Shown one piece after another: positions 10,975-30,751 of a stretch of DNA of 64,000 nt. This DNA comes from Methyloversatilis sp. XJ19-49 (GTDB lineage Bacteria > Pseudomonadota > Gammaproteobacteria > Burkholderiales > Rhodocyclaceae), in contig NZ_JANINI010000004.1 of NCBI RefSeq assembly GCF_024580145.1, forward strand, positions 124,001 through 188,000, read 5' to 3'. Every line of letters begins with the position of its first letter. Positions within the stretch are counted from its first letter, which is position 1. A program made the position numbers and the translations under genes. The notes beneath the pieces are model-generated. The model was not told the DNA's origin and made no database searches. It saw only the letters and a program-made list of their open reading frames with translations.

Positions 10975-11243
10975 ACTACTCCGATCACGCTTCAGTGAGG
11001 ATGCAACAGCGGGCCATCCCTGCCCTGATCGTTGAGTTGGTCTTGCGGTTCGGAACAGCTGAGCCCGCGGGCAACGGCACAAGTAAGCTTTACCTCGACA
11101 AGCGAGCGCGTCGCCGAGTTAAGTCTTTCGCAGGGCCGCTGGCCAAAGCGATTGAGTCCCACCTTGACGTCTATGTCGTTATCAGCGACTCAGGCAATGT
11201 CGTTACAACGGCGTATCGCCATGAGCGTATTCACCGTCACTGA
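10971..11243 (+). CDS. DUF4258-like small protein
   Basis: This 90-residue protein starts MNYSDHASVRMQQRAIP, the signature opening of DUF4258 proteins (S-x-H-A..R..QR.I), and ends with VVTTAYRHERI. The fold is thought to be RelE-like. Such proteins often sit in toxin-antitoxin or defence contexts, but activity is generally unproven. It overlaps the preceding gene by 4 bp and lies 172 bp before the likely start of the SspF-like ATPase. It may be a toxin held by the preceding protein, or a regulator. Confidence 0.65.
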   Translation: MNYSDHASVRMQQRAIPALIVELVLRFGTAEPAGNGTSKLYLDKRARRRVKSFAGPLAKAIESHLDVYVVISDSGNVVTTAYRHERIHRH

Positions 11244-14861: not shown

Positions 14862-17800
14862 CCGATCGGATCATTGGGCGCGTCGGCGCGGACATACTGG
14901 CTAAGCGCATCAGTGACGCTCGCGAGGCCGACGGCTCGGCGCACGACTCGGCGGCACTGTTCCGCCTCGACAAGCTGTCTTCTTCCCAGGTCGCCTCGGT
15001 GGTCCGCGCGGTGCTTGCCAACCACGACTTGGCCGCGCGCGTTGATCTCATGATTCCCGAGGCGCTGGTCGAGGGCCAGGGCTTGCCTCCCGAGGCTCTG
15101 ATCCAGCACAACGCTGGCTTCGTGCGCAACAACGCCCAGACGAGCAAAGAGGCGATCCTCACGGCCAACGGCAACGAGCATAACCTGGCCGACACCTTGG
15201 GCCACGTTACCGCTTTGGGGGCCAAGGAGCTGCGCGCGAACGAAGAGGCATGGGTCGATGCGACATGCCATGTCGCTGGAATGGCGCCGGTTCCCGATGA
15301 TCGGCAGGTGTTCCGCTCTGCCCTCAGAGGCCTGATCTCTGCCTACGACCTGTCATTGGTTCAGCTTGGCGATTTCTGCGCCCACGTAACGGAAGCAATG
15401 TCGGCGACGCGCGGCCTGCCAATTCGCGACGCTATTGGCTGGTCGCTGCCGAAGGTGGGCTTGCCTCGGGACACCGCTTTCTTCGCCAGCGCGAAAACCT
15501 ACGGTGCGTCCTACAAGCCATGGAAGAAGGCGTTCGAGAAGCTCTTCGCCCACCGCGCTCCGCTGCTGCTGCGCTTGCGGCCCAACGGCCAGCCGCTGGA
15601 CCCCGACGAAATGCGCCAGCGCTTGGAGGACAACGCGGCCAGCATCACCGATGCCGCGCGCGTCGCCTTGGAGGCGTTCATCAACGCACCTATGGGCGAG
15701 AACCAGCCCGCTGCTGACGTGGCAGAGCTCGAATGGGAAACCGATGGTGTATGCCACATCTTCGACAAGCCGAAGGAAAAGCTCCAAGGTCTTGCCGAGC
15801 ACACGTTGCGGTTTTTCGAGCATGACTGCGACGACGCAGAAGCCCTTGACGAAAAGTGGAAGCGCCACCTTGAAGATCTCAAGGCGCGAGAGAAGCGCTC
15901 CGAGTGGAATGATGACGACAAGGTCTTCTTCGAGCTGCACCGCCGCTTCATGGAGCCATCGCGGCAGCTTCATTCCCGCTGGGAGAAGGCGATCTTCGGC
16001 AAGGCCATCGAGTGCAATGACTTTCTTGATGGCTTCGCGAGCGTGGCTCACCACCTTTTGGCTGGCGCCGACGACATGGCCGGCGAGCGGTTCCTGCGGT
16101 TTACGGTGAACAAGGGCCGGACTGAGTGGCGCACTCGCTTCAACCATGACGTGGGGTGCTATTTCTCGGCGATGTATCGCGGCATCCAGGAGCTGATGGG
16201 CTCCCGGGTGAAGTGGGAGGTCAAGGGTATGGGCGTGGGCAACCTGCCCGACCCGCTGTTCCACTATGAGAAGTTTTTCGCCAAAGAGAAGGAGCTTCGC
16301 GGCGCGACGCTTAAGCCCGTTTCGTCGCTGGCCCGAAACGCGGTCCAGATCAAGTTCGACGTGGCGCTTGTGCAGCGCATTGGCGAACGCGAGAACGTCA
16401 TCGACAAGACACAGCTTGTGTGGAGCTACCGGCCTGAATCCATTGGCTTGGCGTTGGTCTCGGACATGCGGCGGCTGCTGGAAAAGGGTGCGGTCGGCTG
16501 CACCGAAGTTCCGCGCCGCCTGGTCAGCAAGAAAGGCGGCGTTCAAAGCGTCTCGCTGCTCGACACTGGGACGCTGGAGGCTACGTTCTCCCGCGATGCC
16601 GGTTCGCTGATTCCCCCGGCCAACAAGCTGCGCAGCTTGCGGGCCGAGATCAAGGACCGGATCAAGGAGCTTGCTAATGAGGGACGCCTGACCAAGGAGC
16701 AGCGCGACGAGCTGCGCGTTGCATGGGATGCGTTCGAGGCCGATTACATCTCGGCTATGAAGGACTTCATCGATACAGGTCTGCAAGGCGAATCCGTCCT
16801 ACGGCAGGCTGAGTCGTTCTCGACCCTCCTCAACGCGCTGATGGTCCATGCGCGAGGCGATGTGTGCCGCGCGAAGCTGGTCGCCGAAGTGCTCTCGATT
16901 GCCACGGCCCGCATTTCGGGCGCGCAGCCGTCGCTAATCATCCCGCCTTGGCATCCCGAGCGGATGAAGGCGCTGGCGGTCAAGACTCGCCGCGTTGCGG
17001 GCCTGGTCACTCACTTGCTCAACAGCGACAGCGTGCTCTTTGGGCACCGTGACATCTTCTTCCGGGAGTTCTCCGAAGAGCTCGCACATCCGTTTTATCC
17101 CGAAATCGCCGTCCTGCAGCGCGGGAGCGAGCCGCTGCTTGTCGCCGAGAGCAGCACCGTCAATGGATACAGCCTGTTTGAGCGGCCGGTCCGCGGCGAA
17201 GAGGACTCAATGACCGATGTCGATCCGACGGCCGCCGCCAAGCAGGCGCGTGAGCTCTTGGAGCGCTACATCGGTCTGCAGCCCCACGAGGCGGCTAACC
17301 TCAGCGTTTTGCTCTACAACGCCGACGCGGCTGAGCTGCCGCTGGCCACCGTGCGCGAACTCGCAAGCCTGCAAACCGAGGACGACTTCCAATGCAATGT
17401 GTCGGTCAGGCACAGCGATTCGGCCAAGCTGCGCCGGGTCTATGCCGAGCTGGTCAACAACGCGTGCGACGACCCGGAGCTGCCAGTGGTCAGCGAGACC
17501 TCGGACAACTTCATCTCCAAGCTGCGCATCGCGGTGACTCCGGCGTCGGCCACGCCAGGGCAAGACGAAGGCGGCTTCAAGCCCTTCGACGTCGCGTTCT
17601 TGCATGACGTAGTGTCGCGCACGGCGGTTGAAGAGTGGCTTTCCGTGGACTGGACCAACGACCGGCCTAGTCTGGAGCACGCTCCATCGCGCTGGTCCTA
17701 TCGAAGCGTATCCGGCGAAAACGAGCTCAAATCCACCACCTTCCTGACTTGCCCGTGGCAGACGGCTTCGGGATGGGCCTATGTCGGCGCGGTGGCGGCG

Positions 17801-20260
17801 GTGCATCGCCAAACCGATGCGCCGGTTGGAGCACGCTACCTGCCCGCCCGCCGCATTTCGTTGCAGCATGAGGCGCTGGCTTCCACCATGAACGACGCGC
17901 ACGCGTTGGCCGAGTGGGTCGCCACCTATGATGAGCTCCTCGATAAGCGGCAACTGCAGCACAACGGCATCACGGTGGTCCGGTATCGCCGAGCGTCCAC
18001 CAACGGCCGCAACATGATCGTGAGCTCGACCTCCGAGCTGCGCCTGCTCGGCGTGCTGATTCGCCGACGCCTCGGCGAGCTGGGCCTCTCTCTTGGCTCC
18101 GATGAGCTTGATGCCGTGGCCGCCCGCATGAAGAAGGATGCCTTGTCCGTCTCCGGCGACATCGTTCTGCGCGCCGCCAAGCGCGGCGTCTCTGCCGGCG
18201 AAATGCTCGGGCTTGTCCTCAGCCGCCACCTGGTTGCCGAGGAGTTTGCAGCCCAGGCCTGCGTGGGCCAATCGTTCAGCGTATTCTTTCTGCTGGACGA
18301 CTACGCCGATTGGTTGGCCCAGCGCGAAAGTCGCATCGCCGACATCTTGGCCCTTTGTGTCGAAGAGGTGGACGACGGGATTCGGCTGCGCATCGCAGTG
18401 GTCGAATCCAAATACGTTGCCGCCGATGGCTTAGCTGATGCGAAGCGCTCATCGAAGGCGCAACTCATGGCGACGTTGACGACCTTCCGGGCGGCCTTGT
18501 TTGGCGACCCTGGCCGCCTTGACCGCGATGTGTGGCTCTCGCGCCTTGCCGACTTGCTGATCGACGCTGAGATTCCGCCAGGCCTCTCCGGCCTGTTGGA
18601 GCGGGCACGCTCGAAGCTGCGGGAAGGCGACGTGGACATCGGCTTGCGTGGCTATTCCCAAGTCTTCGTCCATTCGGCCGAAACAGGCCAGTCCCAATCG
18701 GCGTCCGAGCAGATCGAGATCGACAATACGGATGGCGTCCAAGCCTGGCAAGAAGTGTTTGACCGGCCAGAACTGCGCAAACTGGTGGAAGCCTATGCGG
18801 CGGGAACAGGCGCAACCGGCGCTCGGACACAGCTGGGCGGCTCAGAGCCTTGGACGTCCGTCGCGTTCAACCGCCCGGCCGCGCGCGTAGCTTGGCACGC
18901 CATGATGGAGCAGCTCGGGCCGCAGCCGGAACAGGCGCAGGAAGCCGCTGGCGCGCCTGAGCCCAATAAGCAGCCCCCGTCGGTCCAGCCAGTGCCCGCT
19001 CCGGCGCAGACCGCCTCCGCGGCGCCCGCCACTGAAAGCGCTGCCGCAGTCGCGCCATTGCCAGTCGCGGTCGCGATGGGGGCGCATTTGTCGGCTTTGA
19101 TCGCCGCTAAGCAAGCGGGCTTGGCCGTGGCGGACGACGAGCGCGAAGCTTGGGCGCAGGAGACCACCAAGAAGCTCAAGACAGCATTGAACAGCTACGG
19201 CTTGCAGGCTGCGGTCTTGGGCACGCGCATGACGCCCAATGGCTGCTTGGTACGCCTGGCGGGTTCTGATCGGCTCAGGGTCGAGGACATTGAGGCCAAG
19301 CGCACTCAACTTCTGACCACCCACGCCATCAACCTGGTGACGGTTCAGCCCAAGCCAGGCGAGATCGTGGTGACGATTGCCGGGGTCAAGAGGCAGGCGG
19401 TGTCGCTTTGGGACTTATGGGCCAAGCGGCAGCTCAACCGCAACATAGCCGGCATCAACACTTCCTTCGTCCTGGGGCTTCAAGAAATTAATGGCTCGCT
19501 GCTCTACCTGAATCTCGGCGGCGAGTTCGGCGGCCTGTCCTCGCATGAACCGCATTCTCTGGTGGCCGGGGCCACGGGCAGCGGCAAGTCGGTGCTGATC
19601 CAAGCGATTCTTTTGGATATTGCCGCGACCAACCCGAAGGAGCTGGCCCAGATCATCCTCATCGATCCCAAGATGGGCGTGGACTATGCGGCGTTGGAGG
19701 ACTTACCGCACATGCGTGAGGCGATCATCACGACCAAGGAGCGCTCGACCGAAGTGTTGGGCGCGCTGGTCGAGGAGATGGAGAGCCGATACAGGGCGTT
19801 CGCCCAAGCTCGCGCGCGAGACCTGGCAACGTTTAACGCAAAGGCAGCCCCCGACGCTCGTTTGCCCATGGTTTTCCTGATCCACGACGAATTCGCTGAC
19901 TGGATGCTTGACGATGGCTACAAGGGCGCTGTTAGCGCCGCGGTGCAGAGGCTTGGCGTGAAGGCACGCGCCGCAGGCATCCATTTGACCTTCGCAGCGC
20001 AGCGGCCCGACAAAGACGTGATGCCCATGCAGTTGCGCGAGAACCTCGGCAACCGGCTGATCCTAAAGGTTGCCAGCGAGGCCACGTCAAAGATTGCGCT
20101 TGATCGTCCAGGCGCCGAACTGCTGCTCGGACGGGGCCATATGGCCGCAAAGCTCAATGGCGAGCAAGGACTTGTTTTCGCTCAGGCGCCGTTCCTGTCT
20201 GACGACGATATTGCCTTGGCGGTTACCGCGATTCGCGCCTCAAGTTTGAACATGACATAG
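14855..20260 (+). CDS. sspH: SspH/DptH-like giant protein with C-terminal HerA/FtsK ATPase domain
   Basis: This 1801-residue protein starts at TTG 14855, supported by AAGGGAG 7 bases upstream. The first 1340 residues are unrecognised, large and helical. An Ala/Pro-rich linker follows (about 1345-1415). The C-terminal part is a FtsK/HerA-type motor: Walker A AGATGSGKSVLIQAILL (about 1570-1580), IILIDPKMGVDYAALED, Walker B MVFLIHDEFADWM (about 1670) and LTFAAQRPDK. Such domains translocate DNA. In PT-linked restriction the H component is proposed to be the motor or nicking partner. The gene is probably co-transcribed with the two upstream genes and perhaps with the next one (32-bp gap). Confidence 0.7.
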   Translation: MLTDRIIGRVGADILAKRISDAREADGSAHDSAALFRLDKLSSSQVASVVRAVLANHDLAARVDLMIPEALVEGQGLPPEALIQHNAGFVRNNAQTSKEAILTANGNEHNLADTLGHVTALGAKELRANEEAWVDATCHVAGMAPVPDDRQVFRSALRGLISAYDLSLVQLGDFCAHVTEAMSATRGLPIRDAIGWSLPKVGLPRDTAFFASAKTYGASYKPWKKAFEKLFAHRAPLLLRLRPNGQPLDPDEMRQRLEDNAASITDAARVALEAFINAPMGENQPAADVAELEWETDGVCHIFDKPKEKLQGLAEHTLRFFEHDCDDAEALDEKWKRHLEDLKAREKRSEWNDDDKVFFELHRRFMEPSRQLHSRWEKAIFGKAIECNDFLDGFASVAHHLLAGADDMAGERFLRFTVNKGRTEWRTRFNHDVGCYFSAMYRGIQELMGSRVKWEVKGMGVGNLPDPLFHYEKFFAKEKELRGATLKPVSSLARNAVQIKFDVALVQRIGERENVIDKTQLVWSYRPESIGLALVSDMRRLLEKGAVGCTEVPRRLVSKKGGVQSVSLLDTGTLEATFSRDAGSLIPPANKLRSLRAEIKDRIKELANEGRLTKEQRDELRVAWDAFEADYISAMKDFIDTGLQGESVLRQAESFSTLLNALMVHARGDVCRAKLVAEVLSIATARISGAQPSLIIPPWHPERMKALAVKTRRVAGLVTHLLNSDSVLFGHRDIFFREFSEELAHPFYPEIAVLQRGSEPLLVAESSTVNGYSLFERPVRGEEDSMTDVDPTAAAKQARELLERYIGLQPHEAANLSVLLYNADAAELPLATVRELASLQTEDDFQCNVSVRHSDSAKLRRVYAELVNNACDDPELPVVSETSDNFISKLRIAVTPASATPGQDEGGFKPFDVAFLHDVVSRTAVEEWLSVDWTNDRPSLEHAPSRWSYRSVSGENELKSTTFLTCPWQTASGWAYVGAVAAVHRQTDAPVGARYLPARRISLQHEALASTMNDAHALAEWVATYDELLDKRQLQHNGITVVRYRRASTNGRNMIVSSTSELRLLGVLIRRRLGELGLSLGSDELDAVAARMKKDALSVSGDIVLRAAKRGVSAGEMLGLVLSRHLVAEEFAAQACVGQSFSVFFLLDDYADWLAQRESRIADILALCVEEVDDGIRLRIAVVESKYVAADGLADAKRSSKAQLMATLTTFRAALFGDPGRLDRDVWLSRLADLLIDAEIPPGLSGLLERARSKLREGDVDIGLRGYSQVFVHSAETGQSQSASEQIEIDNTDGVQAWQEVFDRPELRKLVEAYAAGTGATGARTQLGGSEPWTSVAFNRPAARVAWHAMMEQLGPQPEQAQEAAGAPEPNKQPPSVQPVPAPAQTASAAPATESAAAVAPLPVAVAMGAHLSALIAAKQAGLAVADDEREAWAQETTKKLKTALNSYGLQAAVLGTRMTPNGCLVRLAGSDRLRVEDIEAKRTQLLTTHAINLVTVQPKPGEIVVTIAGVKRQAVSLWDLWAKRQLNRNIAGINTSFVLGLQEINGSLLYLNLGGEFGGLSSHEPHSLVAGATGSGKSVLIQAILLDIAATNPKELAQIILIDPKMGVDYAALEDLPHMREAIITTKERSTEVLGALVEEMESRYRAFAQARARDLATFNAKAAPDARLPMVFLIHDEFADWMLDDGYKGAVSAAVQRLGVKARAAGIHLTFAAQRPDKDVMPMQLRENLGNRLILKVASEATSKIALDRPGAELLLGRGHMAAKLNGEQGLVFAQAPFLSDDDIALAVTAIRASSLNMT

Positions 20261-20292: not shown

Positions 20293-22656
20293 ATGACAAA
20301 TTCATTTAATGAAGAAGGCCAGCCTTTTCGAATCGCTGCGCGTGCGATGCGGCAGCTCGGTGCCGAACTGATTACATCTGATGAAATGGCTCTCTATGAG
20401 CTCATTAAAAACGCTTTTGATGCGCGTGCGCCACGGGCAAAGGTTTCAATTTCCGCGCCAGCGGATGCAGGCGCCGTTGCGCTTGTTCGTGAACAGCTCT
20501 TAGCCCAAAAGATTTCTAAGGTCGCCGCGCTCGAAAGGCTCGATAAAGCGATCTCTGTGGATCTTGATCTTGATCAACGGGCACAGGTATTGAGCCTGTT
20601 CAAGGAGAATTTCGCCTCGCGCGAAGACTTGGCGCAATGCATCGAAAAATTTTTGCTTGATGACTACTGGATTCAGATAAGCGACAGTGGTGAAGGTATG
20701 TCGGCTTCGAATCTACAGAATAGATTCATGGTCGTAGGGACGCCTAACAAATTCTTGGAGAAGAAAACCAGAAAAGAGGGGGGGCATCTGGTTTTGGGCG
20801 AAAAAGGAATAGGTCGTCTGTCCATGATGAAGCTGGGCGACATCGCAATCGTCGAATCCAAAACTGAAGGTGAACGGTATTGGCATTCAATAACTTTTGA
20901 TTGGCGAAAATTTGATGATCCAGCTGCATATCTCGGAGAAGTAAGGTTTCACGTTGTTCGTGGGCAAAGCGACGCCTCCGAGGTTCAGGGAACGGTCATC
21001 ACAATACGTAGACTTATCGCGAACTGGTCAGCCACCAAGGTGCAAGCGTTTCTCAATAAGTTCATTCGCCGATTACAAGACCCAGTTTCCTCACGCAGGC
21101 GGCCCTACCCCATAGATGTTCTTTTAAACGGACACAGGCTGCCCATCGTTCCGTTGCCGCGCTGGCTAACAGAGTGCGCGCAGTTCAAGACTGAAATCAC
21201 ATACACGCCCGGTGACTCTCCCACCTCCGTGGCACTGCGACGCGATCTCAACTGGAAAAGCGCCACCAGTGCTGAATCCAGAAGTTGGACGCTTGAAGAG
21301 ATTTCTCGTGAGGCGAGCGTACCCATAGAAATCTGCCGGCGCCTAGGGCCATTCTCAGTGAGTTGCCTCTGGTTTAATAGATCGCTTATTCACGGTGGCA
21401 TTGAGCACTCGAAGAAAAAGATAGTCGATGAGCTCAATGTTTGGTGCGGAGGGTTTGCAATTTACCGAGATGGATTTCGCGTCGGTCAAACAGGCGGAAT
21501 GGATGATGACTGGCTTGAGTGGGACGCCAAAGCTCTACGCACTAAAGGGTTTACGCTTAACCGGTATCAGACTGTGGGAAGCGTCAACATTTCATCTGAA
21601 ACCAATCCCCATCTTGTCGATGCGGCGAATCGGGAAAGGCTGGTTTCTTGCCCAGAGCAGGATTTGCTCGTCACATTGCTTGGAGACGTGATTGTCAGAG
21701 ACCTGCGCGCGCACATCGATGCTGTGAAGCAGCTTGAAGTCAAGCACGCCATCGAGGAGGAATCTACGGATGAGAGTCTCAAGAAGTCTGAGGACTCACT
21801 GCGACAGACATTGCGAAATGTCGAAGAAATAGGTCGCTCTATTCCGGCTGCAAAACAAAAGATCGATGAAATTCGGCGTGCCCTACAAGGTCAAGTCGAG
21901 TATGTGGAAACGATCCGAAATGCACTTCAGCTTGCTCGCGAGACGCGAGTTGAATTGCTTGAGTTAGCCAATATCGGTCTAGTCGTTGAGATTGTTGTCC
22001 ATGAACTCACACGACTGACCCAGAGGACGGGAGAACTGCTGTCTGATCTCAAAAAGACGGAGGGGGCGAGTTCGGCAATGGTATCGCTAGTTGATAACCT
22101 GCAGACACAGATCATTGCAACAAACAAGCGGATTCGGTCAATTGACGTTATGAGTCCGTCAGGGCGGAATCGTAAGGAACGCTACGATGTTATCGCTCAG
22201 GCACAAACTGTCTTGGCAGGGTTTGACGCCAGGTTCAAGCGCCATCTGATTGAATTCGAGTTGACCGTTGATGGCGAAGACCCCGCTGGGAAACGACTCG
22301 TCGTTCAGCTTGTCAGGGGACTGATAGCTCAAGTTCTTGAAAATCTTTTAACTAATTCTGTGTATTGGGTGCAGCAAAGCCTTCGAGAGCCAGACGTTGT
22401 TCGATACATGTCTGTCGATATTGACTCGCAGGCTTTCACGATTTCCGTATCCGACAATGGGCCGGGAATCGATCCTTCGTATCGCGAAGATGTCTTCAAA
22501 CCCTACTTCACCACCCGGAAAAGGGGCAAAGGGTTGGGTCTCTACATCGCTCGCGAGCTCGTTGAATATCATGGCGGAAAGCTCTATCTAGATTCAACGA
22601 GCGATGCTGATGGGAGACTGAGAACCTTTGTGCTTGAGCTTCCCAAGGAAGGCTAA
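20293..22656 (+). CDS. Dual-GHKL-domain histidine-kinase-like protein
   Basis: This 787-residue protein has AAGGA 8 bases before ATG. The N-terminal GHKL domain (residues about 5-190) has an N box (YELIKNAFDAR), G1 (IQISDSGEGMS) and a glycine-rich lid (GEKGIGRLSMMK), in the style of Hsp90/MORC-like ATPases. The C-terminal 140 residues are a second, histidine-kinase-type ATPase: ENLLTNSVYW, VSDNGPGIDPSY, VFKPYFTTRKRGKGLGLYIA. Between them a coiled coil leads to EIVVHELTRL with His570, placed like a kinase H box. No membrane segment or sensor domain is seen. GC content is visibly lower than in sspH. It pairs with the receiver-like gene 2 bp downstream. Confidence 0.75.
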   Translation: MTNSFNEEGQPFRIAARAMRQLGAELITSDEMALYELIKNAFDARAPRAKVSISAPADAGAVALVREQLLAQKISKVAALERLDKAISVDLDLDQRAQVLSLFKENFASREDLAQCIEKFLLDDYWIQISDSGEGMSASNLQNRFMVVGTPNKFLEKKTRKEGGHLVLGEKGIGRLSMMKLGDIAIVESKTEGERYWHSITFDWRKFDDPAAYLGEVRFHVVRGQSDASEVQGTVITIRRLIANWSATKVQAFLNKFIRRLQDPVSSRRRPYPIDVLLNGHRLPIVPLPRWLTECAQFKTEITYTPGDSPTSVALRRDLNWKSATSAESRSWTLEEISREASVPIEICRRLGPFSVSCLWFNRSLIHGGIEHSKKKIVDELNVWCGGFAIYRDGFRVGQTGGMDDDWLEWDAKALRTKGFTLNRYQTVGSVNISSETNPHLVDAANRERLVSCPEQDLLVTLLGDVIVRDLRAHIDAVKQLEVKHAIEEESTDESLKKSEDSLRQTLRNVEEIGRSIPAAKQKIDEIRRALQGQVEYVETIRNALQLARETRVELLELANIGLVVEIVVHELTRLTQRTGELLSDLKKTEGASSAMVSLVDNLQTQIIATNKRIRSIDVMSPSGRNRKERYDVIAQAQTVLAGFDARFKRHLIEFELTVDGEDPAGKRLVVQLVRGLIAQVLENLLTNSVYWVQQSLREPDVVRYMSVDIDSQAFTISVSDNGPGIDPSYREDVFKPYFTTRKRGKGLGLYIARELVEYHGGKLYLDSTSDADGRLRTFVLELPKEG

Positions 22657-22658
22657 AA

Positions 22659-24683
22659 ATGAACGAGCAGAATATCAATTTGGAAGGTGCGCCGGACAAT
22701 ACCCTCGTGGCTGGTGATCCGCCCCGACTGGCTATTCAGCCACCCGAGGGGCAGGAGCTAGTACTCAAGAGAATACTTGTGGTCGATGACGAGCTCGCGG
22801 GCTTGCGTTGTGAGCACGTCAGGGGAGTTAGTCCAGATTTCTATGACGTGATTTCCGATGTCAACGATCCGCGATTCGAATACTTGCGGCAGGTGGGCCT
22901 TGCAGTTGTGTCAATTGCTGAGCTCATGGACGGCAACATCAATGATGTGGCTGAGTATTTTGGTTCAGACGACGCCGTTTCAAATTTGATTTTGAGTGAT
23001 GCTTTCGCTCAAAGTGCCCACCATGAGTTGAAGGCGTTGCTGAATCCCTTCGTCGAGCGTGCGGCGCGCGTTAAAAAGCTAGAAGCCGCAGTGCGTGAAG
23101 CATTTCCCGCTTCGCATTTTGTGATTGAGATTCGATCTGCCCCTCGTCCTCCTCCGCAGGACGTGTTGTTGTTCGACGGTCTGTTCTTGGACTTGTTTCT
23201 GGAGAATGGTGAGGCCAATCCCGTCGACGGACTGGCTGACTACATGCGGTCAGTCTCGCGGGCAGCCGCCGGAAATGAGATTCCTCCCATCGTGTTGATG
23301 TCATCTCATGAGGAGCTTGAGCAAAACAGGCGGAGTTTCAGCGAGAGGTCGCAGATTAGTGCCGCGGGCTTGCTGATTCTCCCTAAGCAAAAGATTACAA
23401 GTGAGGCTTTCGGCGCTCCCGGTTTGCGGCTTAGTTTTGATCAGTTGACGCGTCAGCGCCCGGCGGCTCGTGAGATGCGGCAGTTTATGGCCAACTGGCT
23501 TAATGCACTCGATGAAGCCAAGAAGAAGGCCTCGGCCACGCTTTGGAATCTGGATGCGTCGGCCATGCAACAAATTCATTTTGCGTCTGTTAGCGACGAT
23601 GATCCTTTTGACCAGCATCTTCATGAGTTGCTCGCGCGCGAGCATCTTGTCCATATTGAAAAAGATGCGAGTGTCTCGTCGAGCATGTCCAAGTTGGACG
23701 GCATTTTTCGGCTGCTGCTGTCGGCCGACGGGAAGGCCATCGAAAACAGGCTGATCGCGCCGACTACCGATGTCCACGCAATGCGAAATCTAATCTCGCA
23801 TTTCACATGGGTGGGTGCATTGCCTTCCGTGCCTTTTGTTACATCTGAGAACGAAGCAGAAGCGGCAAAGAACATTAGCCGAAGCCTGCCTTTTGGCTCT
23901 GTTCTTGCCGGCCCGGACTTGAAGACTGGTTCGATTTGCCTAGTTCATATAACTCAGCAATGCGACTTGAACGGCATAAGCCGAGATGAGGACATCAACG
24001 GTTGCTTGATTTTTGCCCGTGCGCGGGCACGGGAGCTTCAAACATGGGAGAAGCCCGACCCTTCAACAAAGCCACGATTGGTTGCTCGGAATTTGAAGTT
24101 TGACGACAGTGCTGGGCCACATGAATTTGATTTGGACATAGAAGTTGGCCAGGTTTTGGCTTTGCCGTTGGTCGAAGTGGTTCAACGCGCGCGGGAACAG
24201 AGCCTTCGCGTCATTGGGCGTTTGAGGTGCGACATTGCTTCGCATGTCGTCGCTGACACAAGCAACCACATCTCACGCTCGGCCTCTCAGAAAATGATTC
24301 GGCCGGCGATGATGAAAGCGAAGGTGTTCCTTCAAGAGCCGACGTTGCCTCGAAAGTTCACCACTGTTTTGGAGAACCCCAAAACAGGAAAGATTTTCTC
24401 TCTACTGCTTGAAGGCGAGCTATACAGCTTTCAGGACGATGCCTGTATTTGGATTTCGCTATGGCTTAGGAGTGAGTTGGCAAAGCTGAGCATCGTGGTG
24501 GAGGCTGACTTGGTTTGCACCGCGCTGCGCAAGGGTTGGCGCGCCGATAAGCGACTTGCGGGGGTCTTGATGACGAGAGTGAAGAGTGTGAACGCACTCG
24601 ACACCGCGTATAACGCACTCGTTCACCCGGAGGCTACGGCAGGCCAGCCGCAGTTGACCATTGTTATCGAGCGGAGCGCGTGA
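22659..24683 (+). CDS. Receiver-like protein with an interrupted REC fold and unknown C-terminal domain
   Basis: This 674-residue protein contains the elements of a response-regulator receiver, spread out. They are the acidic pair in KRILVVDDELAG (Asp43, Asp44), a candidate phosphoacceptor in GLFLDLFLEN (Asp178), PIVLMSSHEE for the conserved Thr/Ser and LILPKQKI for the conserved Lys. Acidic pair and acceptor are about 135 residues apart instead of about 45, so roughly 90 residues are inserted. The C-terminal 400 residues are not recognised and contain a His/Cys segment (VHITQQCDLNG). It follows the dual-GHKL gene by 2 bp, so they are probably partners. It converges on the sspD-like gene with a 9-bp gap. 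Confidence 0.6.
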   Translation: MNEQNINLEGAPDNTLVAGDPPRLAIQPPEGQELVLKRILVVDDELAGLRCEHVRGVSPDFYDVISDVNDPRFEYLRQVGLAVVSIAELMDGNINDVAEYFGSDDAVSNLILSDAFAQSAHHELKALLNPFVERAARVKKLEAAVREAFPASHFVIEIRSAPRPPPQDVLLFDGLFLDLFLENGEANPVDGLADYMRSVSRAAAGNEIPPIVLMSSHEELEQNRRSFSERSQISAAGLLILPKQKITSEAFGAPGLRLSFDQLTRQRPAAREMRQFMANWLNALDEAKKKASATLWNLDASAMQQIHFASVSDDDPFDQHLHELLAREHLVHIEKDASVSSSMSKLDGIFRLLLSADGKAIENRLIAPTTDVHAMRNLISHFTWVGALPSVPFVTSENEAEAAKNISRSLPFGSVLAGPDLKTGSICLVHITQQCDLNGISRDEDINGCLIFARARARELQTWEKPDPSTKPRLVARNLKFDDSAGPHEFDLDIEVGQVLALPLVEVVQRAREQSLRVIGRLRCDIASHVVADTSNHISRSASQKMIRPAMMKAKVFLQEPTLPRKFTTVLENPKTGKIFSLLLEGELYSFQDDACIWISLWLRSELAKLSIVVEADLVCTALRKGWRADKRLAGVLMTRVKSVNALDTAYNALVHPEATAGQPQLTIVIERSA

Positions 24684-24692
24684 CGTCCAAGC

Positions 24693-25535
24693 CTACTTGT
24701 GACAGATCACGCAGGACCCGTTGCCTTCGTCCTCGCCATAAACATCGTCGATGTCCTCGGGGCATGAGCGAACTGGGCGGAGCGGATTGATCGGGATGAC
24801 CGCGCGAGCGCGCTCCCTGCGCTTCTCAAAGTCAGCCACGATTTGGGCGACCCGCTCGGGTTGCTCCAGCTCAGCAAGCGACTCCCCTGAAGACCAGGTG
24901 AACGGCGAACCGTGCTCCAAGGCGTCTTTCTCCAAGTCCTTGGCGGCCTCGAACTTGTCGGGGTGGCGTTCTTTGAGGCGCACCCATTCGATCTTCTGCT
25001 GGAAGAAGCAGAACGTGCAGCCGCTGCGAGAACGCCACTCGTAATACTTGGGGTAGCCCACGCCGGATGATTCGAGGATGTCCATCACGCCAGCCTTGTC
25101 GATGCCGGCCGTGCGGAAAGGCAGGGACACGCTGAGGTTGTCCCGCTTGGACGAGTAGCCTTCGCGATAGTCTTCGTCGGCTCTGATGGCCACGTATGAA
25201 GTGACCTTGTCTCCGGCAGCGATCATCGGTTTAATCCACTGCTCGAACGGCGTCAGCTTGAGCTTGCGGGTGCACCACCGCGTTTGTGGCGACGGCAAGA
25301 AGTGGTTGTATTCGCGTAGCCAGAAGTCGAAGTCGCGTCGCGGATTGAGCCGCTCAATGGACTTGCCGAGGTAGCCCTCGAGGCGGCCAAGGAACTCATA
25401 AACCTCCGGCAGCTCTTCGCCTGTGTCGGTGAAGAAATACTCGATGGTCAGTTCTGGGTGAGCCTGGCGCATGTGCACGGCTAGTGCCGCGCTGTCCTTG
25501 CCCCCCGACAGTCCGAGAACGTGGCGATCAGCCAT
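24693..25535 (-). CDS. sspD: SspD/DndC-like PAPS-reductase-family PP-loop enzyme
   Basis: This 280-residue protein has the PP-loop LGLSGGKDSAALAVHM at residues 8-23 and the family string YFFTDTGEELPEVYEF. Cysteines that may bind an Fe-S cluster are at RWCTRKLK, SGCTFCFFQQ and near the end (CPED, SCVICHK). In phosphorothioation the enzyme (DndC or SspD) adenylates the DNA backbone for sulfur transfer. An ordinary CysH is less likely given the neighbours. Its start overlaps the end of the ATPase gene by 8 bp. Last gene of the sspB-sspC-sspD-like operon. Confidence 0.75.
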   Translation of the reverse strand: MADRHVLGLSGGKDSAALAVHMRQAHPELTIEYFFTDTGEELPEVYEFLGRLEGYLGKSIERLNPRRDFDFWLREYNHFLPSPQTRWCTRKLKLTPFEQWIKPMIAAGDKVTSYVAIRADEDYREGYSSKRDNLSVSLPFRTAGIDKAGVMDILESSGVGYPKYYEWRSRSGCTFCFFQQKIEWVRLKERHPDKFEAAKDLEKDALEHGSPFTWSSGESLAELEQPERVAQIVADFEKRRERARAVIPINPLRPVRSCPEDIDDVYGEDEGNGSCVICHK

Positions 25536-28500
25536 GGTTTTGCTCCTCGTCAGCCGTCAGCCGCATGCCCGCCTTGGCCAGAATGGCAAGCAACACATCC
25601 GTTTCCAGGCCTTCCTTTTGCAGTTGGGCAGCGATCTCGTCGGCCTTGGTTTCCACGGCCTGGCGATTTCGGTCGGTGATGTCGAAGGAGCGCGAGATCG
25701 TTCGGGCGTCTGTGCCAGCGCCAATGACCACTGCAAAGGCTTCGCTGTTGGGCTTGCGGCCCTTGACTGAGACGAACGCCTCGGTTTGCCTGAACCGCAA
25801 CGCTACCTTTGAGATCTCAAGCGTCGCAGCGTCGATGTCGCGATCCGTCCAGTCACGCGGCGGCTTGTTGGCGGCTAAGCTCAGGATGCCCTCGATGCTG
25901 ACCGTGCTGCCGTCATGCTTGGCCAGGCGGGTTGCGAATGAGTCTTGCCTTAGGTCGCCGGTGATGCCGGCAACGGCCTCAGCGCGAGCCCTCAGACGGT
26001 CAAGGCGAGCCGGCGGGGCGTCGAGGGCTGCGAGCATGGCCGAGTCCATGCTTCTGAGCATCGCTTCGTATGCCCCGGCCAATTCGGCGATGGGGCCACG
26101 CAGGGCTTCCACATAGGCGTCGCCATCGCTGGTGTCTAACAGAGCCACCAGGTCGACGAACAAGACCTTGTGGGGGTCGCTCGCTTTTAGCAAGGTGTCG
26201 CGGATGGCTCGGGCGCTGTCGCTGAGTTGATGTGTGCGCTGGGTCCACACCGGCAGGTTGAACGCCAGGCCGACCAAACTGCGGGCGGCCTCGAGCGGGT
26301 CGCGCGCATCGGCGGCATGTCCTAGCTCCGTCAGGATGTTGGCGATGCCACCTAAGATGCGCGCCTTCTCCTCATCGATGACCACCCAACGAAGCGAGAA
26401 GCGGCCAGCGTCTTGAAGGTATTCGTCGATATCGGCGTCATTAAGGCGTGGAATGAACATGCCATCCTTATAGACGGCCACATTGGATTGATGCGCCAGC
26501 AAGAACGCGACGAAGAGCACTGGCTGAATGCCCGCCTTCACCCCAAAGGGCGCGGCAGACCATCGCTCAAGGATGTCGGAGGCCCTTACGCGCGATGACG
26601 AGTCCACGAACATGTCGCGTGTCGCTTGCCAGATCGCGGCGAAACGGGCTTCGCCGTCTCTGTCAGGCTGCACAAAGCGCCAGTTCCCCTCGCTGACTTC
26701 CTGGTGGATTCCTGTGCTGTGTAGCAACGTCTCGTAGAGGCCGCGCTCAGCGGGGAAACCTTCAATGCCCAGGTGCTCGGTTCCCTCGTGGGAAAGCATG
26801 CGGTGTAGCAGGTCGCGGCGCGCCTTGACGCTGTTGCTCGACACGCTGTCGCGATTGACTAGCTCGCTCCACACAAGCGGAGCGCTTGAATAGAGCTCGT
26901 CGGCGAGGTTGGAGGCGATGGGGGAGAGGCGAGCGCCGGCTTCGATGGACTCGTTGCTTCCATCGAACCACTGAACGTTGGTAATTGCAGCTTGGAGCTG
27001 CTCTTCAAGGGTGGCGTTGACGGCGGCGAGGCGCGCATGGACTTCGCGCCTCGCGACAGCGTCACCTTGGAGCTCGTGGCGATCCTTGACGGTTTCGAGA
27101 GCCACCAGCTCGGCACCGAGCTCTTCGATACGGGCATGGTTACGCGGGATGCCGACCAGCACCGGCCAAGGACTCAGGCGCGAGCTCTCCTGCGCCCTAC
27201 GCTGCGCGACCTTGTGCCCAACGCCGCGACCAGGGAGGGCAAGGGCAAACAGGCCGAACTCGCCCTTGGCCGGAACGTATTTCTCGGCCAAGCGTTCTGC
27301 CTCGTCGAGCTTGCTCAGCGAGAGATTCATCCACCGCATGGTGCCTGTCGCGTGATAGTGCCGCTTTGCCACGACTGGGTGCAGGCCCATCAAGTGGGCG
27401 AGGTGGTTGTAGTCGACGTCTGGCGAGGCGGCCAAGGTTTTGGCGACGGCAGCGTCGATGTCGAAGTCGCTGCCCTCAAAGACCGACCAAGCGCCGATAT
27501 GCTTTTTGAAGAGAGCCACACGCATGCGCGAAAGTTCTTCAAGGCCCTTCTCAATTTCAGCGATGGGCTGCTTGTAGAAGATTGTTCCCAGGACTGCCGT
27601 GTCGGCGGCCAGGCCGGAGCCATTGCGGAACAAGTCAATTACCGCAATGTTCTTGATCAGCTCGACCAAGAACGGATTGCAGTTCTTAGCCTCGGTGCGC
27701 TCGACGGCTTCGACAGCTTGCGACCAACGATGGCCATCGGGAGAGGCGAGAATCGCGGGCTCAAGGTTCGAGCGTAGGTAGTCCCAATAATTGTCCGGCC
27801 GATACCAAGTGGCCGACTTGATGGGGGTCGCTTCGAGATAGGAGCGGAAGCCGTGCGGCTCCACCGATGCCAGAAAGCCGAATGTGCTGCGCTCGTTTTG
27901 GCCGAACTGCCGCTTGGAGATCGGGCCGAGTAGTGCAGCCATGGCCGGATGTAGCGGCCAGCAAGCTTCAAGCGCGTCGGCAAACTGGCCGCCAACGACG
28001 GGGCGGCGCAACCGGATGGAATCAGCGATGGCTGTGGAGACTTCTTTCACCCAAGTCGGGCGGCACCCTGCTTCGATGGCCTTACCTATCAACGCCACCA
28101 TTTCGTCGTTCGCGGCGACAAAGGGCAGGTCGATGTATCGGCCTTGAATCTTGGCCCACTCGTCACGGGTCTCGGTGCCCAGACGCGCTCCGTATTGGGC
28201 GAACGATTGGTGCAGTACGCCAACGATCACTAGCCTGCCATTGGCACGTGCTGCAGCTTCGGCAAGTTCTTGGAAGAAGAAGACATCGTCTCCGTATCCC
28301 AAGGCCGAAGCCTCTAGAAACTTACCCATCTCGTCAAGGATAACCAGTACGCCGTCTTGCGAGCGATCCTCGGCGGTTTGACACAGCTCATTGATCAAGC
28401 TGCTTGAGGATACTTTGCGGTTGTCGGTGCCCTTGCCCTTGGCTTTGCGCAGCGCGGTGTTCAGGTCGGCGACTACATTTCCGCGCCTGCCTACCACGGG

Positions 28501-28857
28501 TAACACAAGCCATCCGTCGCGGGTCGGGAATGCCTTTTCAAAGGCGGGCATCGCGCTGAGCTTGAGTACGTTTCGTGCGTGGGTCCGCAGCTTCTTGTCA
28601 GGATGCAACGCGCTCGCTAGAGCCACGGCAAGCGATGACTTCCCTCCGCCGAAAGGGCCGGTCCAAGTGAATGAACGTTGGTTGGTTTCCGTTAACTGCC
28701 GAGCCATGTTCTCCAAGATGGAGGTCGCGGTGGAGTGGCAGATGTAGCCTGCCAAGGCGTCGAGACGGCCCAAGTCCGCGTCCACGCGTATTGAGCGTTG
28801 GTAATGGCGTGCAATGTGGACGAAGTCTGAGAGAGATTGGCCTTTGTCGTCAGTCAT
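25528..28857 (-). CDS. sspC: SspC-like large P-loop ATPase
   Basis: The protein is 1109 residues long. Walker A is TGPFGGGKSSLAVALA (about residue 67-80) and Walker B is VLVILDEMGKFLE (about 175-187), followed by VIVGVLHQSFAQYG as a sensor-1-like strand. The rest is a long helical region without other recognised domains. Similar ATPases occur as BrxC/PglY in BREX, but no PglX, PglZ or BrxL accompanies this one. The DUF4007 and PAPS-reductase-like neighbours, each with an 8-bp overlap, point to SspC of the single-strand phosphorothioation machinery. The exact ATPase subfamily is uncertain. Confidence 0.65.
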   Translation of the reverse strand: MTDDKGQSLSDFVHIARHYQRSIRVDADLGRLDALAGYICHSTATSILENMARQLTETNQRSFTWTGPFGGGKSSLAVALASALHPDKKLRTHARNVLKLSAMPAFEKAFPTRDGWLVLPVVGRRGNVVADLNTALRKAKGKGTDNRKVSSSSLINELCQTAEDRSQDGVLVILDEMGKFLEASALGYGDDVFFFQELAEAAARANGRLVIVGVLHQSFAQYGARLGTETRDEWAKIQGRYIDLPFVAANDEMVALIGKAIEAGCRPTWVKEVSTAIADSIRLRRPVVGGQFADALEACWPLHPAMAALLGPISKRQFGQNERSTFGFLASVEPHGFRSYLEATPIKSATWYRPDNYWDYLRSNLEPAILASPDGHRWSQAVEAVERTEAKNCNPFLVELIKNIAVIDLFRNGSGLAADTAVLGTIFYKQPIAEIEKGLEELSRMRVALFKKHIGAWSVFEGSDFDIDAAVAKTLAASPDVDYNHLAHLMGLHPVVAKRHYHATGTMRWMNLSLSKLDEAERLAEKYVPAKGEFGLFALALPGRGVGHKVAQRRAQESSRLSPWPVLVGIPRNHARIEELGAELVALETVKDRHELQGDAVARREVHARLAAVNATLEEQLQAAITNVQWFDGSNESIEAGARLSPIASNLADELYSSAPLVWSELVNRDSVSSNSVKARRDLLHRMLSHEGTEHLGIEGFPAERGLYETLLHSTGIHQEVSEGNWRFVQPDRDGEARFAAIWQATRDMFVDSSSRVRASDILERWSAAPFGVKAGIQPVLFVAFLLAHQSNVAVYKDGMFIPRLNDADIDEYLQDAGRFSLRWVVIDEEKARILGGIANILTELGHAADARDPLEAARSLVGLAFNLPVWTQRTHQLSDSARAIRDTLLKASDPHKVLFVDLVALLDTSDGDAYVEALRGPIAELAGAYEAMLRSMDSAMLAALDAPPARLDRLRARAEAVAGITGDLRQDSFATRLAKHDGSTVSIEGILSLAANKPPRDWTDRDIDAATLEISKVALRFRQTEAFVSVKGRKPNSEAFAVVIGAGTDARTISRSFDITDRNRQAVETKADEIAAQLQKEGLETDVLLAILAKAGMRLTADEEQNHG

Positions 28858-29779
28858 ATGCTCTACGAATCATATTTAGACGCATTTCATTGGAGTCTCC
28901 TGCTTGCTTATGCACTTGGCGCAGACCCGCCGTGTCCGTCCATGCCAAAAAGCCACTTGTGAGATCGTTCAGCCCCATCAGCCGTTCAGCGATGGAATTT
29001 TCATCAAGTTTGAATACACGTCCCGGTGAGCCCTCGCCGTACGCAATGGTTTCAAATGCCATTGAGCTCATGCTGACTTCCGATCTCTCCCAGTAGTCCA
29101 ATAGTGCATAGGCGAAAAGGGCGTTGTGAAGAGTGGCCTTTGGGCCTCTTCGGAATGCGTATTGGCCTTTGTGTATTTCTTGGATCAAACCGAGCTCGCC
29201 CAGCAGCGGTTCAGCAAAGTCTTCCGGCGAGCCACCGGCAAAGCGCGGCGCGTAGCTGCGTAGGCACGTGTCCAAATCACGTGACAGGGTGGAAGCCGAC
29301 AGCCGTCGCTTTGGGTCGTGCTTGCGCGCGAAATTTTCCAAAGGTGATTCGAGCTCCTGTCGCGTAAAGGTTGGTGAGGTCACATGATTGAAAAGCCAAC
29401 TCCAGGTCGTGGCTCTGTTTCCCTTTCCTGCGAGCCACCAGTGCGCATGCCAAGCGGTTGTTGGGCTTTCGGCATACGGGTCCAAGCCCCCATCGCAAAG
29501 GACCTCGATAGCGACAGGAGATAGGTCGAAAAATCGAGAGTCACTAGAGTCACGTAAAACATCGCAGGCTAGTGCCCAGTGGCGGATAGAGCTGACCATG
29601 TTTTTGCCGACACCAAAAGCTGCGATAGCGCTCTCATCGGAGAACGCTGCTTTTGGAACGCGATAGCCCGCAACCGATTGATCAAAAACCTTTTTTAGCC
29701 ACATTTGCCGGAGAGGAAACGTCTCATGTCCGGAAAAGTGGTGTGCATTAGCTGTGTTCAAAGCCATCCTCATTTGCAT
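28850..29779 (-). CDS. sspB: SspB-like DUF4007 protein
   Basis: The protein has 309 residues if started at 29779; starts at 29767 and 29827 are also in frame and none has a clear ribosome site. The N-terminus holds the DUF4007 hallmark HHFSGHETFPLRQMWLKKV, followed by AAFGVGKNMVSSIRHWA, a helix-turn-helix-like segment. Later NHVTSPTFTRQELE and the WTDTAGLRQVHK end fit the family. In SspABCD systems the DUF4007 protein SspB is reported as the DNA nickase that opens one strand for sulfur insertion. It is the first gene of the minus-strand operon and its stop overlaps the next start by 8 bp. It appears intact. Confidence 0.75.
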   Translation of the reverse strand: MQMRMALNTANAHHFSGHETFPLRQMWLKKVFDQSVAGYRVPKAAFSDESAIAAFGVGKNMVSSIRHWALACDVLRDSSDSRFFDLSPVAIEVLCDGGLDPYAESPTTAWHAHWWLAGKGNRATTWSWLFNHVTSPTFTRQELESPLENFARKHDPKRRLSASTLSRDLDTCLRSYAPRFAGGSPEDFAEPLLGELGLIQEIHKGQYAFRRGPKATLHNALFAYALLDYWERSEVSMSSMAFETIAYGEGSPGRVFKLDENSIAERLMGLNDLTSGFLAWTDTAGLRQVHKQAGDSNEMRLNMIRRAYD

Positions 29780-30522
29780 TTTGTAGTGGCGTGAATGCAA
29801 GAACTGGTGGAAACCTCCAGTTCGCATCTTACTCCTGTGGAGGATGTGTCAGTCGCCTCAAGATTTTCTTACGCCATCGCCAATCCCGCGCCACCTTCAA
29901 TGCCAAATGAATCTAAAGATTAATGCGTTGTCCAGCCGGGTGATATCAGCACGCGTATGAACTTCAGGAAAAAGGGGTATTTTTACTGAAAATTTAAGCC
30001 TGTCTTATTAGATGCAAGCATGTGATAAAAAAGTACTTTCAAGAATATTCTGTTATGGAAGGGGTGGGGCTTTCACAAAAGTCGATGCGTGGCCGAGTGG
30101 GGCGGCGTGTTCGGTGATGCGGTGGTGGCCACCGCAATCCTCGATCGACTACGCCACCACAGCCATGTCATCACGATCCGCGGCGACAGCTACGGGCTCA
30201 GCGCAAACACCGAAACCCAAAACGATTGATCAACAACAGGGGTCAATTCCTGATGTCGTTTGACACGCCGCACATCGACGCGCTGTTCGATGGGGGTGGA
30301 TTTCGTTTTCTGCCAAGGGACACGTCAGCATCTCTGCGGAATTGCCGGAGTTAGCACATGTGCAACTTGGGATCTCTCAAGATTGGATGCTTCGAGACCT
30401 CCAGACGGCACACCTGCCTTACTTGTCGATACATCGAGCTCACGAGTTTCGCGGGTGACGCCGCCCAGTTTGGTTGATTGAAACTGGCTACGCCGTGGCT
30501 ACTCAGGCCCAGAAAACAAAAA
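29780..30522. other. Promoter region of the sspB-like operon and island-edge debris
   Basis: The right part of the island has no intact gene. It must contain the promoter of the minus-strand operon near 29780-29900, though no consensus pair was found. An IstB fragment lies at 30092-30229. The remainder up to the tRNA terminator holds short open frames without ribosome sites that I regard as remnants. Confidence 0.5.
30092..30229 (+). pseudogene. istB: C-terminal fragment of an IS21-family IstB ATPase
   Basis: The frame reads EWGGVFGDAVVATAILDRLR then HHSHVITIRGDSYGL and a stop, which is the characteristic C-terminus of IstB helper ATPases (FGDAV.A.AILDRLLHHS...I.GDSYRL). Only about 45 codons remain and there is no istA or upstream istB. 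It marks an old IS21-family insertion or recombination scar at the island edge. Confidence 0.8.
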
Positions 30523-30561: not shown

Positions 30562-30637
30562 TGGTGGGTTGTGAGTGGCTCGAACACTCGACCTACGGAT
30601 TAAGAGTCCGCTGCTCTACCAACTGAGCTAACAACCC
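30562..30637 (-). tRNA. tRNA-Lys (anticodon CUU)
   Basis: This 76-nt cloverleaf with encoded CCA has acceptor stem GGGTTGT/ACAACCC, anticodon loop CTCTTAA and T loop TTCGAGC. Anticodon CTT decodes AAG. It is the second gene of a tandem pair. Its 3' end faces the accessory island, the usual arrangement for a tRNA used as an integration target. Confidence 0.95.
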
Positions 30638-30675
30638 GAAACTGGTTCGCAATACCTGTTTTTCGGCCCACCTGG

Positions 30676-30751
30676 TGGTGGGTCGGGCGAGACTCGAACT
30701 CGCGACCAACGGATTAAAAGTCCGCTGCTCTACCGACTGAGCTACCGACCC
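30676..30751 (-). tRNA. tRNA-Lys (anticodon UUU)
   Basis: This 76-nt cloverleaf with encoded CCA has acceptor stem GGGTCGG/CCGACCC and anticodon loop CTTTTAA, decoding AAA/AAG. It is the first gene of the tandem pair, 38 bp before the CUU gene, and is read from the promoter at 30772-30800. Confidence 0.95.

Follow-up and report, generated by a model that had tools for sequence, protein, structure and literature searches.

A pair of adjacent genes with a recurrent place in Ssp phosphorothioate loci was analyzed within a 64,000-nucleotide stretch of Methyloversatilis sp. XJ19-49 DNA (the window; contig NZ_JANINI010000004.1). The two open reading frames (ORFs), termed P1 (20293-22656) and P2 (22659-24683), lie on the + strand with a gap of 2 bp and encode a dual-GHKL sensor kinase of 787 residues and a predicted receiver protein of 674 residues with a helical insert and a C-terminal output part. 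Judged from its sequence and genomic company, the pair is interpreted as an optional, dedicated Ssp module that would most likely act as a restriction arm, replacing SspFGH and SspE or adding to them, a reading considered about as likely as not. That the pair is a dedicated component of Ssp loci is by itself considered very probable.

The association with Ssp genes was seen across a wide range of hosts. The species scan covered one genome for each of 84,980 species, used as query a P1 alignment (A1) with rows chosen without regard to context, and gave 457 P1 relatives; all locus counts given here out of 80 refer to the best 80 of these 457, and the 80 include near duplicates (P2 of L055 and L057 is 98% identical to that of L053). 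Their hosts belong to the Pseudomonadota, Planctomycetota, Chloroflexota, Nitrospirota, Acidobacteriota, Verrucomicrobiota, Bacteroidota and others. In a profile search, 78 of the 80 loci had P2 next to P1 and on its strand, the contigs of the remaining two ending there; in L062, P2 was seen as a 62-residue piece only. SspB, SspC or SspD (above 60 bits) was in view in 75 loci and, in two further loci, SspD lay outside the fetched sequence by 46 and 425 bp, bringing the loci with an Ssp gene beside the pair to 77/80; one more had SspD on another contig of the same genome. In 11 of the 80 (L034-L037, L040-L042, L048, L049, L051 and L056), sspC lies on one side of the pair and sspD on the other, all on one strand. 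Of the 80 loci from the scan and the 12 plasmid loci that were read, only two came from genomes without a clear Ssp gene: L039, where PbeA and PbeC are near the pair and the genome has no SspD match, and L094, where the ORF directly upstream gave a weak SspD-like match (50 bits). The pair of L039 (L039:4754-14265) is downstream of PbeA (a helicase) and PbeC (a DndD-like ATPase), so the module also joins a Dnd-like branch.

Plasmid records displayed the same linkage. P1 was found at E<=1e-20 in 16 of 72,556 records and SspD at E<=1e-30 in 65, and the 16 P1 records all fall within these 65. The 16 include four from Acinetobacter baumannii, which share one P2 match, and two Agrobacterium plasmids with equal length and match position. 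Ssp genes were near the pair in each of the 12 plasmid loci that were opened (12 of the 16), in several arrangements. The Polaromonas plasmid pPNAP02 has the order of the window, F-G-H-P1-P2 followed by convergent D-C-B; Acinetobacter baumannii has P1-P2 with convergent D-C-B, with FGH not seen in the stretch viewed; Methylorubrum extorquens pME152 has a cysteine desulfurase gene and then B-C-D-P1-P2; and a Chloroflexota plasmid carries P1-P2 between sspC and sspD on one strand. P2 is present once in its own genome, a search of 369 genomes of the class gave two matches (the window's own and G141), and a search of 61 relatives also gave two (its own genome and G380). No close P2 relatives were found in viral contigs with a single-protein query.

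P1 has the domain order HATPase_c_3, middle region, H-box with His570, HATPase_c. Pfam places HATPase_c_3 (PF13589) at residues 127-208 and HATPase_c (PF02518) at residues 678-786, the latter being the C-terminal histidine-kinase site for adenosine triphosphate (ATP; 22324-22650, + strand), which also has PDB matches. The N-terminal Hsp90/MORC-like ATP site (20398-20913, + strand) comprises E36-x3-N40, D131-x-G133-x-G135 and G169-x-K171-G172-x-G174. When a P1 profile of 14 members was compared with solved structures, the N-terminal part matched Hsp90s (best 3.1e-6) and residues 518-781 matched histidine kinases (best 7.1e-21); both ATPase domains were found in 14/14 family members. Between them, the H-box EIVVHELTRL contains His570, which, like E571 and R574, is kept in 80/80 relatives. 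Equally invariant (80/80 each) are E36, N40, D43, D131 and the tested glycines of the N-terminal ATPase, with T150 at 79/80, and N684, N688, D721, G723, G725, G747 and G749 of the C-terminal ATPase. Taken together, P1 is a predicted histidine kinase with a MORC/Hsp90-like ATPase at the sensor position, and the arrangement of two ATP sites around an H-box, as described in an earlier note on this DNA, is borne out by the Pfam and PDB matches and by the constancy of His570. The kinase-phosphatase motif has Thr or Asn at the position where P1 has R574, suggesting that P1 would have little phosphatase activity.

Against Pfam, PADLOC and NCBIfam, P2 had no match at E<=0.1, the standard Pfam receiver family included, and its assignment relies on the alignment and on an AlphaFold2 model built from 66 sequences (mean predicted local distance difference test score (pLDDT) 88.6, predicted template modelling score (pTM) 0.74). 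In the model, the receiver domain (residues 37-250; 22767-23408, + strand) has Asp43 and Asp44 directly after strand 1 (37-42) and Lys243 directly after strand 5 (238-242), and its strands 3 (174-178) and 4 (211-215) end in Asp178 and Ser215, respectively; residues 51-148 form helices, compared with one helix in an ordinary receiver. The earlier note's reading of receiver landmarks with about 90 extra residues thus finds its counterpart in the model, the extra residues being the helices of the 51-148 insert. Asp43, Asp44, Asp178 and Lys243 are each present in 73/73 sequences, as is Ser or Thr at 215 (73 ORFs above 400 residues among the 80 loci), and these positions do not vary in an alignment reaching down to 11% identity. 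Alignments A3 and A4 omit L050 and L092 (no P2 in view), L036, L052, L054, L062, L077, L094 and L095 (P2 split, cut or short), L064 (179 bits, limit 200), and L055, L057, L068, L069 and L089, which duplicate or are related to rows that were kept (identity 84-98%). A Foldseek search of PDB with the full model gave the response regulator EutV as best match (probability 0.89, E 0.03), and a P2 profile against solved structures gave weak matches, the best to a magnesium transporter (E 0.021), with the receivers regX3 at E 0.69 and 3nns at E 1.6. Together, these results describe P2 as the putative receiver partner of P1, with a long output part. The N-terminal 36 residues (22659-22766) are the fastest-changing part of P2, poorly modelled and 58% identical to the congener as opposed to 86% overall.

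Beyond the receiver, the model shows three parts in P2: a helical linker spanning about 252-371, an alpha/beta domain at about 396-545 (residues 396-545 at 23844-24293, + strand) and a C-terminal part (546-674; 24294-24680, + strand). The 400-residue unknown domain of the earlier note gives way in the model to these three parts. In the alpha/beta output domain, Gly413 and Cys435 are kept in 73/73, Arg540 in 72/73, D436 in 71/73 and R523 in 52/73. Folded alone, the output part reached pLDDT 89.6 and pTM 0.62, and a Foldseek search of PDB with it placed MazF chains at ranks 1, 2, 3, 6 and 7 (probability 0.87, 0.85, 0.63, 0.66 and 0.51; E 0.06-0.3, target template modelling (TM) score 0.46-0.51, root-mean-square deviation (rmsd) 6.6-8.2). 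Among viral models (BFVD), the best match of the full P2 model was a PemK-like protein (probability 0.82, E 0.022, target TM 0.25). None of the three structure searches (full model, output part, viral) gave a match passing E 0.001. Resemblance to MazF/PemK is accordingly a weak and tentative lead; from the model, a MazF-like fold is about an even prospect and ribonuclease activity is unlikely. P2 differs from MazF/PemK in the invariant Cys435 beside the nearly invariant Asp436. As a MazF toxin by sequence, P2 was unsupported in a PemK profile comparison with a small, poor reference set. No fold match was seen for the C-terminal part, which at 81% identity to the congener is the least conserved region after the N-terminal tail.

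By tree distance, P1 and P2 behave as a single evolutionary unit, one that accompanies sspBCD in the loci counted above: the P1-P2 distances correlate with rho 0.89 (n=83), close to SspB-SspC (rho 0.91, n=70). The ratio of nonsynonymous to synonymous substitution (dN/dS) against the congener is 0.04 for P1 (498 residues), 0.10 for P2 and 0.01 for SspD. The low ratios of P1 and P2, together with the invariant landmarks, argue that the pair is real beyond chance.

The general type of this pair has been described, although its Ssp branch appears not to have been. Kinases with HATPase_c_3, HEF_HK and HATPase_c were reported to adjoin Response_reg_2 proteins (linkage of 91.6% across 644 regions), and these pairs were enriched near restriction-modification (R-M) systems, chiefly type II, whose control by the kinase-receiver pairs was proposed (Bellieny-Rabelo 2021, PMC8011034). 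P1 shares with the HEF_HK (PF19191) kinases the domain order HATPase_c_3, H-box, HATPase_c and an adjacent receiver protein, and its profile aligned with four HEF_HK-type kinases, three of them beside a cytosine methylase, at hhalign probability 100 (E 5.6e-52, 672 columns). The H-box region itself (residues 560-606; 21970-22110, + strand) is below the family cut-off (16.9 vs 24.1 bits), and 10/14 family members match HEF_HK at E<=1 (best 4.2e-6). Five proteins of Response_reg_2 (PF19192) type share three features with P2, namely an acidic DD close to the N-terminus, a xCD(L/S/M) motif and, towards the C-terminus, an SR(V/I)G helix; they end at that helix, whereas P2 extends about 130 residues further. 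The profile comparison gave probability 95.5 over 35 columns only, with five references (two above the PF19192 cut-off, three by similarity). P2 was rejected as a plain Response_reg_2 member, having no PF19192 match at E<=1, with 1/66 family members matching (E 0.0026).

The pair is therefore a divergent, phosphorothioate-linked branch of a known kinase-receiver type, whose DNA partner is cytosine methylation in the HEF_HK pairs and phosphorothioation for P1/P2. In the main text of PMC8011034, the word starts phosphorothio, DUF4007, PAPS, FtsK, Dnd and sulfur are all absent. A literature search, which covered few subscription-journal papers, found no paper tying the pair to Ssp as a family and no functional study of the 2021 kinase-receiver pair beside R-M systems, and the parts of PMC10853773 and PMC12839542 available hold no mention of such a pair. 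The label "undescribed" consequently applies in part: the kind has been known since 2021 beside R-M systems (PMC8011034), while recurrent companionship with Ssp across phyla was not found in the literature. The pair is also, as had been claimed, outside the described SspABCD and SspFGH sets; the window carries SspBCD and SspFGH with the pair between both halves, as in SspABCD-SspFGH (PMC8092258), but the pair is not among the SspABCD-SspFGH and SspABCD-SspE sets as published and named, and neither P1 nor P2 has a PADLOC Ssp match.

Three plasmid loci carry a block of cytosine methylase, dual-GHKL kinase and receiver (L169:1769-7860, L170:1804-7872 and L168:3023-9793). No annotated restriction enzyme was present within about 6 kb on either side of these three blocks, and one has vsr; it is as if the kinase-receiver pair stood in for the restriction enzyme, and the pair itself may be the restriction arm there too.

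Presence of the pair is optional. Across 398 genomes sampled evenly from the phylum, 191 had some SspD match at E<=0.001, and SspD was counted only below 1e-80 (11 genomes); the ten loci other than the window's all lack the pair. Four of these ten have FGH (with weak scores in G657), one has PbeA/PbeC, and five have a different GHKL gene and a helicase gene, of which four also have a PLD gene above 60 bits, the fifth reaching 53 bits, and one also SspE. On plasmids, the pair is in 16/65 SspD records and, among the matches listed, in 8/34 records with SspH (E<=1e-60) and 8/31 SspD records without SspH or SspE; this split rests on one SspE query and on the 60 of 65 SspD records among the matches listed, which include all 34 SspH records. 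Similar plasmid frequencies with and without SspH suggest that the pair combines freely with FGH and is optional. Within the 63 fully viewed loci (at least 9.5 kb on both sides), FGH was found in 21 and not found in 42; three loci had SspE and four had Pbe. The whole set of effectors tested for (FGH, SspE, Pbe, second GHKL, PLD, STAND-like, Mrr-like) gave no match in 34, including L093 and L094. Two candidate roles were rejected on these counts: an obligatory SspFGH partner, given the 42/63 loci and the 8/16 plasmid records with no SspH match, and a universal Ssp component, given the ten other SspD genomes and the 16/65 plasmid records.

The 34/63 loci with no tested effector make the pair a candidate restriction arm for some "orphan" sspBCD loci. 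In a published survey, 2,211 of 2,678 sspBCD modules lacked sspFGH and sspE, and more diverse restriction partners were raised as a possibility (Wang 2021, PMC8092258). The pair is a concrete and widespread candidate for such a partner, and its clear active-site residues make the missing-partner question testable by point mutations. If the favored reading is true, restriction would be coupled to a DNA mark via histidine-aspartate phosphotransfer, and phage defence would gain a link to the kinase-receiver pair reported in 2021 beside R-M systems.

As a mechanism, it is proposed that the N-terminal ATPase of P1 would close on DNA or on a DNA-bound Ssp complex, reading modification state or foreign DNA, and that closure would switch the C-terminal kinase, with phosphorylation of His570. 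The phosphoryl group would move from His570 to Asp178 of P2, a predicted transfer considered probable. Phosphorylated P2 would then free or assemble its C-terminal output domain, which would attack the invader or halt the cell, while the mark made by SspBCD would hold the module inactive on the cell's own DNA. In loci that also have SspFGH, such as that of the window, both arms would operate side by side. The invariant kinase, ATP-site and receiver residues were counted for activity of the pair. An effector arm is slightly favored over a regulator of expression. A wider proposal is more tentative and is considered clearly less likely than not, namely that one kinase-receiver module is the restriction arm for both 5-methylcytosine and backbone phosphorothioate, marks with no chemical kinship, acting as a phosphorelay in which a MORC-like clamp reads the mark and a phospho-gated MazF-fold effector fires, and that it would be the effector lacking in a sizeable share of "orphan" sspBCD systems.

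Several results weigh against the restriction-arm reading. The pair is absent from all ten other strong-SspD genomes of the phylum sample, and the effector negatives rest on FGH profiles seeded from the window, two SspE queries and one query each for PbeA and PbeC, so that divergent or distant effectors may escape. For the output domain, no fold match reached significance (best PDB E 0.06, rmsd 6.6, target TM 0.48), there was no PemK sequence match (hhalign probability 0.1, against a poor reference of five sequences, two in wrong frames), and no counterpart of the MazF catalytic residues is discernible in it. Tree distances of the pair correlate weakly with those of SspB, C and D (rho 0.38-0.48) and with SspH (0.20-0.22, n=21); the corresponding values for SspH vs SspB, C and D are 0.63-0.68 (n=10-19). 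These weaker correlations with SspBCD describe the pair as a cassette exchanged among Ssp loci, more than FGH, and therefore also fit an add-on regulator.

Such a regulator, a two-component switch tuning SspBCD or SspFGH expression or activity on infection or lost modification but not itself an effector, would account for the sensor kinase and response regulator architecture, for the nearly equal plasmid frequencies with and without SspH (8/34 and 8/31, among the matches listed), as for an accessory, and for the greater exchange, and is in line with the R-M control proposed by the authors of PMC8011034. It is nevertheless considered rather unlikely: scans with Pfam, PADLOC, NCBIfam and Response_reg_2 recognized no DNA-binding domain in P2, and in 34/63 loci no tested effector is left to control, although solitary modification has been proposed (PMC8092258). 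A role as a safety device, sensing that self DNA has lost its phosphorothioate and holding back SspFGH or the SspB nickase, is improbable; MORC-like ATPases do accompany modification systems (PMC2292703) and the pair can lie between sspC and sspD on one strand, but the pair and SspH distances barely correlate and FGH was not found in 42/63 fully viewed pair loci. The idea of an independent defence or signalling system merely sharing defence islands, which the earlier note had also entertained, draws on the low guanine-plus-cytosine (GC) content of the pair (0.50-0.54 vs 0.60-0.63 for five of six Ssp genes), the weak tree agreement with SspBCD, L039 with PbeA/PbeC and no SspD, and the coverage of the linkage counts (best 80 of 457, the other 377 being weaker relatives). 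Against these stand the Ssp genes beside the pair in 77/80 loci, its position between sspC and sspD in 11/80 and SspD in 16/16 plasmid records with P1, and even L039 and L094 have a phosphorothioate-type gene nearby (PbeA/PbeC and the weak SspD-like ORF, respectively). This idea is thus strongly disfavored and very improbable. The same note had proposed a kinase-receiver pair tied to the phosphorothioate locus and had named random neighbourhood, or a P2 fold lacking a receiver, as outcomes that would speak against it; the association proved recurrent, and the P2 model displays the receiver pattern.

Histidine kinases and receivers serving defence have a known parallel in Detocs, which, like the pair, uses a histidine kinase and a receiver-type protein for phage defence rather than transcription; unlike the pair, it has three genes, a phosphatase effector and no known DNA-modification link. 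The paraMORC ATPases of R-M systems (Iyer 2008, PMC2292703) share with P1 an N-terminal GHKL ATPase beside DNA-modification genes, but are described with fused nuclease or TIR domains, whereas P1 has a fused histidine kinase and a receiver partner. An N-terminal GHKL ATPase is also found in the phage-defence protein VcSduA, a GHKL-Shedu nuclease of Vibrio cholerae, where the substitution E27A, meant to disrupt ATP hydrolysis, abolished defence, a parallel to E36 of P1 (PMC12137116). Its effector is a fused nuclease domain, and the available parts of that paper describe no kinase, receiver or DNA-modification partner.

Within the window, the Ssp island consists of SspF-SspG-SspH (11476-20260, + strand), the pair (20293-24683) and convergent SspD-SspC-SspB (24693-29827). 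SspF (11476-13329, +) is assigned by its position before SspG and by 60% identity to the corresponding gene of the Polaromonas locus; its ORF opens at 11032, with homology from about 11476. SspG (13326-14861, +) and the FtsK-type ATPase SspH (14855-20260, +) gave PADLOC scores of 722 and 2492 bits. On the - strand, the PAPS-reductase-like SspD (24693-25535; 463 bits) converges on the pair with its stop 9 bp from the P2 stop, followed by the ATPase SspC (25528-28857; 1445 bits) and SspB (28850-29827; DUF4007 by Pfam, PADLOC 374 bits). GC content is 0.502 for P1 and 0.535 for P2, compared with 0.62-0.63 for SspF, G and H (SspH 0.630), 0.60-0.61 for SspD and SspC, 0.527 for SspB and 0.669 for the right flank. 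The spacing of 2 bp and the lower GC than sspH noted earlier are thus correct, but the low GC is shared by SspB. Two genes for lysine transfer RNA (tRNA-Lys; 30562-30751) lie beyond SspB and, with a GC rise to about 0.67, likely mark the right edge of the defence island.

Other genes recur beside these loci. In L130, L134, L136, L138 and L142 (G476, G643, G751, G434 and G456), an SF2-helicase-like gene and a stand-alone HATPase_c_3 ATPase stand beside sspBCD; the stand-alone ATPase has a weak MzaB match (scanned in L134), and a PLD-family gene above 60 bits is present in 4/5 genomes. A stand-alone ATPase and a helicase also occur next to the pair itself in L022 (L022:5472-8820). This helicase/HATPase_c_3/PLD cassette is another candidate effector arm for "orphan" sspBCD. 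Additionally, P2 is followed by a protein of about 976 residues in L019:14518-17448, L044:14314-17247, L060:14498-17425, and L055 and L057:14452-17442; the L019 copy, the one scanned, weakly matches nSTAND, TPR and HNH_2. A protein of about 490 residues takes its place in L043 and L047 (Mrr_cat in L043), and both are possible extra effectors. In Rhizorhabdus wittichii pUPO218 (L010:8963-11758), SspF is broken by an IS5-family transposase gene.

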